A stretch of 37,045 bases of DNA from Phycisphaerae bacterium (GTDB taxonomy: Bacteria; Planctomycetota; Phycisphaerae; Sedimentisphaerales; Anaerohalosphaeraceae): assembly GCA_029858345.1 (NCBI GenBank), contig JAOUFG010000015.1, positions 1 to 37,045 on the forward strand, written 5' to 3'. The translations under genes and the position numbers were made by a program. A model generated the notes under the pieces. It saw nothing but the letters and a program-made list of their open reading frames with translations, did no database searches and was not told the origin of the DNA. Positions 7,634 to 28,799 of this stretch are shown one piece after another. Position 1 is the first letter of the stretch. Each line of letters starts with the position of its first letter.

Positions 7634-7676
7634 ACATAGCCGCACAGGAACGAGAAATTTCAATCGTGATCAGTAT
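7634..7676 (-). repeat. R1 repeat, truncated copy (R1-a)
   Basis: On the minus strand this reads ATACTGATCACGATTGAAAT, then a CGTTCCTG stretch and GTGCGGCTATGT. It matches the first 45 or so bases of the copy at 22389-22502. The second half is missing. It lies directly after the terminator and inside a spurious N-terminal extension of the beta-propeller frame. Confidence 0.75.
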
Positions 7677-16592: not shown

Positions 16593-16672
16593 TTTTTTAA
16601 CCACGGAATGCACAGAAGTACACGGATATTTTTATTCTTCAGTGTCATTCCGTGATTTCCGTGGTTAAATTT
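16593..16672. repeat. R2 palindromic repeat without cargo (R2-a)
   Basis: TTTAACCACGGA at the left and TCCGTGGTTAAA at the right are exact inverted copies. Imperfect pairing continues inward (ATGCACAGAAGTACACGG against GTGTCATTCCGTG), with a short T-rich centre. The 80-bp unit fills the deoC-pabB gap. It extends into deoC, where it encodes the last residues (NLTTEITE) and the stop codon. Confidence 0.8.
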
Positions 16673-19998: not shown

Positions 19999-20038
19999 AA
20001 TAATCTCCTGAATCTCAAATCCTTAAACGACCCTTTAC

Positions 20039-20131
20039 AACTGAAAATTCCCGTTTCTACGCGGCTCTGTAGAGTTATGACCGTAAGTTACGGATTCACT
20101 TGCGGGAACTTAATACCCTTAAGGGTATTAA
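20039..20131 (+). repeat. R1 repeat, full copy (R1-c)
   Basis: The blocks run in order: CTGAAAATTCCCGTTTCTA, CGCGGCTCTGTAGAGTT, GACCGTAAGTTACGG, TTGCGGGAAC. A perfect 20-bp palindrome ends the copy (TAATACCCTTAAGGGTATTA, 20111-20130). It lies between the coiled-coil gene and trpS. It lacks the internal CCCGATGCATCGGG segment seen in R1-d. Confidence 0.85.
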
Positions 20132-22388: not shown

Positions 22389-22502
22389 ATACACCCTTCA
22401 GGGTAGTAAATTCCCGCGAGCAAAGTCGTAACTTATCCCGATGCATCGGGACAACCCTGCATAGCCGCGCAGAAACGGGAATTTTCAATCGTGATCAGTA
22501 TA
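22389..22502 (-). repeat. R1 repeat, longest copy (R1-d)
   Basis: Read on the minus strand: ATACTGATCACGATTG, AAAATTCCCGTTTCTG, CGCGGCTATGCAGGGTT, the palindrome TCCCGATGCATCGGGA, TAAGTTACGAC, CGCGGGAATTTACTACCC and TGAAGGGT. AATTCCCG and CGGGAATT can pair perfectly across the element. It fills the space between the convergent tadA and GGDEF genes. Confidence 0.88.
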
Positions 22503-23920: not shown

Positions 23921-24022
23921 ATAGTGATCTTAATTGAAAATTCCCGTTGGGTCGCGGCTATGTAGGGTTTTGACCGTAAATGACAACTTCGCCCGCGAGA
24001 ATTTATTACCCTGAAGGGTATA
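23921..24022 (+). repeat. R1 repeat forming the lemA leader (R1-e)
   Basis: The blocks are ATAGTGATCTTAATTG, AAAATTCCCGTTGGG, TCGCGGCTATGTAGGGTT, GACCGTAAATGACAAC, CCCGCGAGAATTTATTACC and CTGAAGGGTATAA. The terminal hairpin (TACCC-TGAA-GGGTA) ends 4 bp before the AAGGAG that serves lemA. In-frame translation of the copy gives a false N-terminal IYYPEGY peptide. Confidence 0.88.
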
Positions 24023-24033
24023 AGGAGTTTATC

Positions 24034-24591
24034 ATGCCGCTTATCGTATTGATTGGGGTTTTGGTTATCGGGTTGTTAATACCGGTGATGATGTACAACA
24101 CGCTGGTGGGAAAACGCAACCAGATTCACAATATCTTCGGGACCATGGACGCCCTGCTGAAAAAACGCTGGGACCTGATCCCCAACCTCGTCTCGACCGT
24201 CAAGGGCTATGCCGACCATGAACGGGGGCTTTTTGAGGCCGTCACCGAGGCCCGGTCCAAGGCCCAGCAGGGCCAGCTCAACGAGGACCAGCAGGTCGGG
24301 CTGGAAAATTCGTTCATGCAGCTTCTGGGCGTGGTGTGGGCGACCGTGGAAAACTACCCTGACCTGAAGGCCTCGGATAACTTCATGCACCTGCAGCGGA
24401 CGCTGAACGAACTGGAGGAGCAGATCTCCGCCGCACGAAGGGCCTATAACGCCTCGGTCACCGACTATAATAACTCCGTCCAGATGTTCCCCACCAACAT
24501 CATCGCTTCCATGTTCAACTTCAAAGAAAAAACACTATTCCAGATCGCCGCCGCCGAACGCGAAAATCCAGAAGTCGGTAAACTTTTGTAA
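24034..24591 (+). CDS. lemA: LemA family protein
   Basis: The 185-aa protein has one N-terminal membrane helix (PLIVLIGVLVIGLLIPVMMY) and the four-helix LemA domain: NQIHNIFGTMDALLKKRWDL, IPNLVSTVKGYADHE, YNASVTDYNNSVQMFPTN. LemA proteins are common but poorly understood and often lie next to DUF3137 or TPM-domain membrane proteins. The start at 24034 is fixed by AAGGAG 6 bp upstream; the longer frame from 23980 is R1 repeat. DUF3137 lies downstream, separated by an AT-rich orphan gene flanked by repeat arms. Confidence 0.92.
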   Translation: MPLIVLIGVLVIGLLIPVMMYNTLVGKRNQIHNIFGTMDALLKKRWDLIPNLVSTVKGYADHERGLFEAVTEARSKAQQGQLNEDQQVGLENSFMQLLGVVWATVENYPDLKASDNFMHLQRTLNELEEQISAARRAYNASVTDYNNSVQMFPTNIIASMFNFKEKTLFQIAAAERENPEVGKLL

Positions 24592-24592
24592 A

Positions 24593-24609
24593 TTAACCAC
24601 AGAGGACAC
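24593..24609 (+). repeat. R2 left arm before the orphan gene (R2-c left)
   Basis: TTAACCACAGAGGACAC starts two bases after the lemA stop. It is the inverse of the arm at 25248-25278, allowing a few mismatches, and matches the CCAC-type arms at 16593-16672. Confidence 0.7.
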
Positions 24610-24648
24610 TATATTCACTGATAAAAGAAGAAGTGAAGGCAATAAAAC

Positions 24649-25248
24649 ATGGCAAGAAAAAAAAAGAAACCGAAGAAAAAGATTATAAAGAAAAAATACG
24701 ATTCGAAGTCGAAATATCTTGAAGAAAGCAGAAATAACATACCACATCAAAGAAAACTTTGTGTTTGTACAAAGCTAATCGGTAAAGGAATTTTAACATT
24801 ACTCGCAATATGGGGAGCTTGGGTAACATTAAATCCCCGTGTATTTGTATATCCTGATATTGCTCTCGACCCAAATAATCCTGCAAATACCTCCTTCGTT
24901 ATTCAAAACCAAGGGTATCTACCAATTTATGATGTCACATTTTCTTGTTCAATGAAGTATCTCACACTTCCGGGTGACATACATGTAATAGCTGAAGAAC
25001 CCTATGATAATAGTTTTTCTGACCCGAAACAAACTGCAAAAGTTATTGCTCCAGGAAAGCTGTATACAATACTTCTACCTATTATTTTTATGGAAAATAA
25101 TAAGATTGAAGAATCAGATATAGCAATTGAATTGACATTCAGACCAATCAAGTGGTTACCATGGCAATATGAAACAAGACATCGTTTCATATCAATCAAA
25201 GGAAAGGATGGACAGTGGCATTGGGTTCCACAAGTCATTGACAAATAA
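24649..25248 (+). CDS. AT-rich orphan gene between repeat arms; membrane-anchored
   Basis: I do not recognise this 199-aa protein. A very basic N-terminus (MARKKKKPKKKIIKKKYDSK) and one membrane helix (about residues 46-60) precede a probable beta-rich domain at 65-199 (FVIQNQGYLPIYDVTFSC), with sequence features reminiscent of immunoglobulin-like folds. Codon use is strikingly AT-rich, with many AAA and ATA codons, unlike lemA and DUF3137 on either side. It splits the usual lemA-DUF3137 pair and is bounded by inverted R2 arms, which suggests it arrived as an insert. GAAGG precedes the ATG. It could be functional cargo or a passenger. Confidence 0.7.
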   Translation: MARKKKKPKKKIIKKKYDSKSKYLEESRNNIPHQRKLCVCTKLIGKGILTLLAIWGAWVTLNPRVFVYPDIALDPNNPANTSFVIQNQGYLPIYDVTFSCSMKYLTLPGDIHVIAEEPYDNSFSDPKQTAKVIAPGKLYTILLPIIFMENNKIEESDIAIELTFRPIKWLPWQYETRHRFISIKGKDGQWHWVPQVIDK

Positions 25249-25278
25249 TCTGTGAAAATCTGTGTAATCGGTGGATAA
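25248..25278 (-). repeat. R2 right arm after the orphan gene (R2-c right)
   Basis: The minus strand reads TTATCCACCGATTACACAGA, then TTTTCACAGAT. It is inverted relative to the left arm at 24593-24609. It begins at the last base of the orphan stop codon and ends 7 bp before the DUF3137 start. Confidence 0.7.
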
Positions 25279-25285
25279 ATAATCA

Positions 25286-26242
25286 ATGAAGACACTTGAC
25301 GAACTGAAAGAGTTTTACACGAACGAGCTTTCAGCGGATCTGCAAGCGTTGGATCAAAAGCGGCAGCAGGTCATGCGAAATGTGATTATGTTTGTTAGTT
25401 TTATCGGGATAGTCGCCGTAGGCGGCGCCGGATTTATTGTCTCACAGGGGGCGCCGCCGATGGTGTTTGTTTTTGCCCTGATTGCCAGTGCGGTTATTGG
25501 CGCTCTTGCGTTCAAATTCATTGGCGGCGGCTACAAACGCGAATTCAAATGGCAGATCATCGGCAAGATCGTAAAATTTCTCGACCCCCAATTAAGCTAT
25601 CAACCTGACGGTCTCATCGATAAGTACACCTTTAAGGCCTCGAATCTGTTTAAGCACCGTATCGACCGCTATAAAGGCGAGGACCTCGTCCGCGGACAAT
25701 TCGGCAAGACGGACATTGTATTTTCCGAACTGCATGCCGAATACAAAAGCGGCTCCGGCAAAAATCAAAGCTGGCATACGATTTTTAAGGGTTTGTTTTT
25801 CATTGCTGATTTTAACAAGCACTTTCACGGGCAGACCCTTGTCCTGCCCGACAGTGCCGAAAAACTCTTCGGCGGCTTCGGCAAGATGCTGCAGGGATGG
25901 AACATCGGACGACCCGATCTGATAAAACTGGAGGACCCGGAATTCGAACGGGAGTTTGTCGTCTACGGCAATGACCAGATCGAGGCCCGCTATATCTTAT
26001 CCACCAGCTTAATGCAGCGGATTCTGGACTTCAAAAACAAAACCGCCCGCAAGATATACCTGTCCTTTACCGGCTCCAGGGTCTATGTCGCCGTACCGAT
26101 GACCAAAAATATGTTCGAGCCGAAATACTTCTCCAGCGTCAATGATTTTGAGCCCATCTTCGACTACTACCGCGACCTGACCTTCGCCACCGGCATCGTC
26201 GACGACCTCAACCTCAACACCCGCATTTGGACAAAACAATAG
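25286..26242 (+). CDS. DUF3137 family membrane protein
   Basis: The 318-aa protein has two N-terminal membrane helices (about residues 32-52 and 58-75). A cytoplasmic domain typical of DUF3137 follows: FTGSRVYVAVP, YDYYRDLTFATGIVDDL-like sequence and a long beta-rich body. Function is unknown; the family pairs with LemA. The ribosome-binding site is weak (GGTGG, supplied by the R2 arm). The sequence returns to the GC level of lemA after the AT-rich orphan, which supports the view that the orphan was inserted. Confidence 0.85.
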   Translation: MKTLDELKEFYTNELSADLQALDQKRQQVMRNVIMFVSFIGIVAVGGAGFIVSQGAPPMVFVFALIASAVIGALAFKFIGGGYKREFKWQIIGKIVKFLDPQLSYQPDGLIDKYTFKASNLFKHRIDRYKGEDLVRGQFGKTDIVFSELHAEYKSGSGKNQSWHTIFKGLFFIADFNKHFHGQTLVLPDSAEKLFGGFGKMLQGWNIGRPDLIKLEDPEFEREFVVYGNDQIEARYILSTSLMQRILDFKNKTARKIYLSFTGSRVYVAVPMTKNMFEPKYFSSVNDFEPIFDYYRDLTFATGIVDDLNLNTRIWTKQ

Positions 26243-28691: not shown

Positions 28692-28793
28692 TATAGTGGT
28701 CGCAATTGAAAATTCCAGTTGGGTCGCGGCTATGTAGAGTCGTGGCCGTAAGTTATGGCTTTACCCGCGGGAATCTACTACCCTGAAGGGTAT
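28692..28793 (+). repeat. R1 repeat forming the TraR/DksA leader (R1-f)
   Basis: The blocks are TATAGTGGTCGCAATTG, AAAATTCCAGTTGGG, TCGCGGCTATGTAGAGT, GGCCGTAAGTTATGGC, CCCGCGGGAATCTACTACC and CTGAAGGGTATAA. It ends 6 bp before the ATG at 28800. GAAGGG in its terminal hairpin is the only Shine-Dalgarno-like sequence available. The layout is the same as at lemA. Confidence 0.88.
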
Positions 28794-28799
28794 AATATC

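Follow-up and report, generated by a model that had tools for sequence, protein, structure and literature searches.

The window (the whole stretch of DNA analysed, 37,045 nucleotides) belongs to a 3.01 Mb genome of 198 contigs and includes an operon in which lemA and a DUF3137 gene stand on either side of an open reading frame for a 199-aa orphan protein (Table 1). The lemA start listed there is the likely one, judged from a dispersed repeat that ends at 24023. An earlier note had described the orphan as an AT-rich gene between inverted repeat arms, inserted in the lemA-DUF3137 operon, and this was borne out: local G+C content is about 0.35 (0.34-0.36) at the orphan vs roughly 0.5-0.6 in the adjoining genes. 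The arms also adjoin the stop codons as described, the left arm (TTAACCACAGAGGACAC) having its first base one after the lemA stop and the right, inverted arm beginning at the orphan stop and finishing 7 bases 5' of the DUF3137 ATG. A possible 5-bp target duplication, TAAAT, can be read from the sequence alone at the two ends of the arm-bounded segment. The dispersed repeat, a second one besides the arms, is about 100 nt long and occurs at five places in the window; one of its copies stops just 5' of the lemA start region.

Table 1. Features of the lemA-DUF3137 locus and related repeats (positions in the window).
Feature	Position	Strand	Evidence or description
lemA, upstream host gene	24034..24591	+	LemA PF04011, 5.6e-52; open frame from 23980
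Left arm, TTAACCACAGAGGACACTATATTCACTGA	24593..24621	+	CAC.. units at 9-10 nt spacing
199-aa orphan, putative cargo gene	24649..25248	+	open reading frame; profile searches, relatives, structure model
Right arm, inverted, TTATCCACCGATTACACAGATTTTCACAGA on the - strand	25249..25278	-	sequence and arm alignment
DUF3137 gene, downstream host gene	25286..26242	+	PF11335, 5.2e-46
Empty palindrome of the arm family seen at the orphan, between two minus-strand ORFs	16596..16669	.	31-nt arms
Copies of the ~100-nt repeat	20028-20130, 23921-24023, 28693-28795 (+); 22390-22501 (-); 7635-7676		ends TACCCTGAAGGGTATA

Each arm consists of some three CAC-containing units set 9-10 nt apart. The two orphan arms align with each other over 30 nt (p = 0.006-0.02, shuffling within the two intergenic gaps); when 160-nt flanks were scored, the pairing alone (p = 0.07-0.29) was not significant, nor was a 6-mer sharing test (p = 0.25). 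Local pairing is thus modest, and it is the genome-wide arm family, with 104 matches to the arm pattern vs 22 for a reversed-pattern control, together with the comparative evidence below, that places the bracket above chance. The palindrome without cargo that the earlier note had seen elsewhere in the window is real, and its arms are 81% complementary. As a correction to that note, its R2 arms represent a single flavour within a broader class of inverted arrays of short units. An Rfam search of the window returned a tRNA as its sole match and no family for the palindrome. Short repeats resembling CCACAGAG are dense in intergenic gaps of the genus, and in five gene clusters of genome G000 (L058, L060, L061, L062 and L063 on contigs C59, C177, C178, C52 and C148, respectively) many gaps carry CCAC-type arms or palindromes whose orientation is often constant from gap to gap.

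The orphan protein gave no significant match to Pfam or NCBIfam, and specifically none to PF13366 (GxxExxY) or PF05635 (the S23/IVP four-helix family). Its predicted features are a basic N-terminus, a single membrane helix and a beta domain at the C-terminus. Candidate PDB folds were rejected, as all had E > 1e-3 and low TM-scores with a model pLDDT of 72; PDB sequence searches matched neither the orphan nor GxxExxY. The gene was detected in 4 of 198 relatives, its own genome counted, and the other three carriers belong to the same order; 392 genomes drawn from the phylum yielded no additional carrier, and the plasmids searched yielded none. A contig database scan returned two contigs only, both identical to carriers already found, and the two named carriers are a Planctomycetota bacterium and a Sedimentisphaerales bacterium. 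One relative of the orphan (L026 in G104) has CACAGAG arms on both sides among unrelated neighbour genes, and no clear bracket was seen around two of the four orphan relatives (L025 in G158 and L027 in G124).

The earlier note had proposed to look for an empty junction in sister strains. No open reading frame lies between lemA and DUF3137 at any of the 17 relatives' junctions examined, which rules out conservation of the orphan with this gene pair; judged by sequence comparison, the orphan is foreign to the operon. In three genomes of the same genus (G001, G006 and G007) the junction is short and clean. In a fourth, G004, the 121-bp gap is an empty palindrome (TAATAACCACCGAGGACGCCGAGGACACTGAAG ... 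AATCTGTGTTAATCTGTGGCTG) placed right after lemA, and its left (GAGGAC) and right (AATCTGTG) flavours are those of the arms flanking the orphan. The G004 left arm (TAACCACCGAGGAC) is identical to the window arm at 13 of 14 nt (p=0.009) and the right arm matches over 33 columns (p=0.0018), with the proviso that the G004 palindrome adjoins a DUF3137 paralogue, so that a separate insertion event at a hot spot is conceivable. Four tandem DUF3137 paralogues adjoin lemA on contig C41 of G004 (L003, L020, L022 and L023).

For five loaded joints of the window's own genome, the ends of the flanking genes also served as queries against relatives, and the joints were then read. The purB-pyrE joint is clean in G008 (8 bp), holds an empty palindrome in G005 and G004, and is loaded in G000 with a 197-aa orphan; the sequence to its left and that to its right each align with one half of the empty palindrome. 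At gcvPA-gcvPB, G004 again has an empty palindrome, and the cargo elsewhere is an 87-aa gene (G000), a 188-aa DUF3841-like gene (G007) or a 105-aa membrane gene (G001 and also G031, of another genus), all of them bracketed. The leuA-leuC joint measures 18 bp in G008 and contains GxxExxY in G000 and an IVP gene in G007; in G001 (L257) a different, REP-like hairpin has inserted into the palindrome spacer at this joint. At gatC-gatA the gap is 18 bp in G004, G000 carries GxxExxY, and four genomes (G001, G006, G008 and G035) share an esterase-like gene that is conserved and older. The 105-aa membrane protein family recurs in G005, where it follows a GxxExxY gene at gatA-gatB and lies between near-perfect arms, and is thus bracketed at two unrelated joints. 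Set side by side, the orthologous sequences show empty vs loaded palindromes and exchange of cargo, differences that may reflect either gain or loss. The idea of loaded and empty states was therefore upheld, with different AT-rich cargo elsewhere and two joints, purB-pyrE and gcvPA-gcvPB, that vary by species. The core of the proposal of a transposase-less unit that inserts or swaps inside palindromes is likewise supported, the movement of the cassettes being what these differences between species would imply.

Composition follows arm orientation. Among sampled regions of the window's own genome, which were picked for carrying arms and are a sample and not a census, the six intervals longer than 250 bp in + ... 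- orientation have a G+C content of 0.34-0.42 and the twenty in - ... + orientation 0.50-0.60, with no overlap (U=0, p=0.0003). Examples of cargo in this genome are a GxxExxY gene, a HEPN-MNT pair, an 87-aa Zn-ribbon-like gene and two orphans, the one in the window and the 197-aa one. Because cargo includes the GxxExxY nuclease and HEPN-MNT genes, the suggested association of arms with orphan genes holds as an association and not as an exclusive one. A contrary explanation is that ordinary intergenic hairpin repeats (REP/MITE-like elements or terminators) coincidentally flank a gene brought in by unrelated horizontal transfer, as the density of family palindromes in the gaps of some gene clusters and the weak pairing statistics of the window arms alone would allow. 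This explanation is quite improbable and largely refuted by the disjoint G+C ranges of the two interval orientations, by orthologous joints that are empty, loaded or swapped, and by flavour-matched arms that bracket GxxExxY genes in several phyla. The orphan is probably cargo carried by a small cassette: an AT-rich gene, bracketed by inverted arms and codirectional with its operon, that lies between the stop codon of one gene and the start codon of the next.

Of the genes seen inside such arms, GxxExxY (PF13366) is the commonest. In the genus these genes are mostly bracketed by flavour-matched inverted arms, with flavours CACAGATT, CGCGGATT, ACAGGATT, CATGAAG, ACGCAAAAG and CACGAAT. Loci reaching p<0.05 in a strict 6-mer test numbered about 8 of 19 for the genus and 11 of 25 for the phylum, counts that call for caution because strict inverted-repeat scoring and the 6-mer test missed brackets visible by eye; the loci that failed (about half) had diverged arms, a wrong start codon or no bracket. 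On a Bacteroides finegoldii plasmid, GxxExxY lies between radA and a gene for an FAD-dependent protein and within CCACAGAGGACGCAGAGGACACGGAG ... CTCTGTGACCTCTGTGTCCTCTGTGG. Plasmid copies from Bernardetia and Treponema have similar arms, and those from Sphingomonas and Gemmatirosa have no similar ones. The unit period depends on the family, being 8-10 nt with a peak at 9 for GxxExxY and 7 nt for IVP, with none for DUF3137. The window shares with the GxxExxY-type bracketed cassette, a class defined here, inverted arms around a single gene, a CAC spacing (9-10 nt) within the 8-10 nt range of the class, and an empty orthologous site (G004, with clean sites in G001, G006 and G007); since the orphan lacks PF13366, it is at most a cargo variant of this class.

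Across 10 genomes, net arm density tracked the number of GxxExxY genes (rho=0.85) and of Y1_Tnp genes (rho=0.81) and did not track the number of IVP genes (rho=0.50). One genome, G001 (91% complete), has loaded cassettes and no GxxExxY match. The Y1_Tnp (RAYT-like) genes of the genus (L099-L124) are enclosed by pairs of inverted G+C-rich hairpins of their own, and no CCAC arms were found close by. RAYT transposases were considered as owners of the arms and set aside on this anatomy, even though the counts correlate. The orphan segment might alternatively be a conventional non-autonomous element, either with degenerate ends from a known insertion sequence or mobilised in trans by a RAYT-type (Y1) transposase, in the manner of MITEs, mobile insertion cassettes or REP sequences. 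Cargo units that have IS or Tn3 ends and lack a transposase have been described (PMC3913671, PMC4133298), and this precedent, like the Y1_Tnp correlation, speaks for such an element. We nevertheless consider it unlikely, given the different palindromes around Y1_Tnp genes, the lack of any transposase between the arms of the loaded units found, and the arm units, which differ widely in sequence among cassettes and match inside each one.

Genes of the IVP four-helix family had arms at p<0.05 in 16 of 28 cases (6-mer test). Outside rRNA (L149-L176) their flanks carry inverted arrays built from 7-8 nt units, and the unit differs from cassette to cassette (for example CAGTAGG, AGTCTTC and AAGAACAC). 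GxxExxY and IVP genes together are codirectional with their neighbours in 32 of 35 tandem contexts. An RNA route, by which operon versions of 23S rRNA intervening sequences would insert in the sense direction through an RNA or cDNA intermediate, could account for this bias and for the short-unit arms around IVP/S23 genes outside rRNA, and intervening sequences do have complementary ends and are cut out by RNase III (PMC4990558). Selection alone can produce a codirectional bias, though, and the GxxExxY family is DNA-nuclease-like, and we regard such a route as very unlikely.

If the orphan is the cargo of a bracketed cassette, as we favour, the arms would act as recognition sites, and cargo could enter or leave either as gene plus arms or by exchange of the spacer of a palindrome. 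The activity may be supplied in trans by a GxxExxY (PDDEXK_3) nuclease working on arms of its own flavour, a better guess than Y1_Tnp because the Y1_Tnp genes carry other flanking repeats. RNA folding predicts that the arms pair with each other across the orphan gene, and the fold as a whole is not more stable than those of shuffled sequences (z=0.10). The codirectional bias and the predicted arm pairing might make an insertion tolerable to the operon, and the mRNA might be cleaved at the arm stem, much as RNase III cuts 23S rRNA intervening sequences. More tentatively, and with somewhat less confidence than not, these cassettes may represent a widespread new class of exchange units made of single small genes, with a family-specific arm period, GxxExxY and IVP proteins as movers, other genes as cargo, and codirectional docking in operon joints.

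Transposase-less cargo units and intervening sequences are kinds already known. Searches of open-access papers by repeat sequence and family name returned nothing relevant on the short repeats, and no description was found there of many-flavour short-unit arms with a family-specific period or of joints in clean, empty, loaded and swapped states; there is a fair chance that the class itself is new. Repeats tied to a nuclease family, along with clean, empty and loaded joints, make this a testable gene-exchange system and point to a poorly described way of slotting single genes into bacterial operons. Such a system would account for the entry of orphans into conserved operons with no visible transposase and would supply a candidate role for GxxExxY and IVP proteins.

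Several known systems resemble the locus in part. GxxExxY genes (TIGR04256 / PF13366 PDDEXK_3) frequently lie inside the same kind of arms and are codirectional in operons, but their sequence is unrelated to the window cargo; no demonstrated role in mobility was found for them in the open-access literature searched, and no partner transposase is known for short-unit arms. The 23S rRNA intervening sequences are alike in being short, sporadic and low in G+C, with one small ORF and inverted complementary ends (PMC4990558), whereas they sit in 23S rRNA and carry an S23/IVP ORF, the window cargo is non-IVP and occupies an operon joint between protein genes, and IVP arm units are 7 nt long compared with 9-10 nt for the window. 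Mobile insertion cassettes and Tn3-derived TIME units also hold cargo between inverted repeats with no internal transposase (PMC3913671, PMC4133298), but their ends belong to a known transposon family and the arms here are many-flavour arrays of short units. REP/RAYT elements share the short, dispersed intergenic palindromes and have RAYT genes between copies, whereas the RAYT genes of this genus are flanked by G+C-rich hairpins without CCAC arms. Integron gene cassettes, which lie near an integrase, were also considered in view of the arm-rich gene clusters; they have attC at the 3' end of the cassette, in contrast to the arms on both sides of the cargo here.
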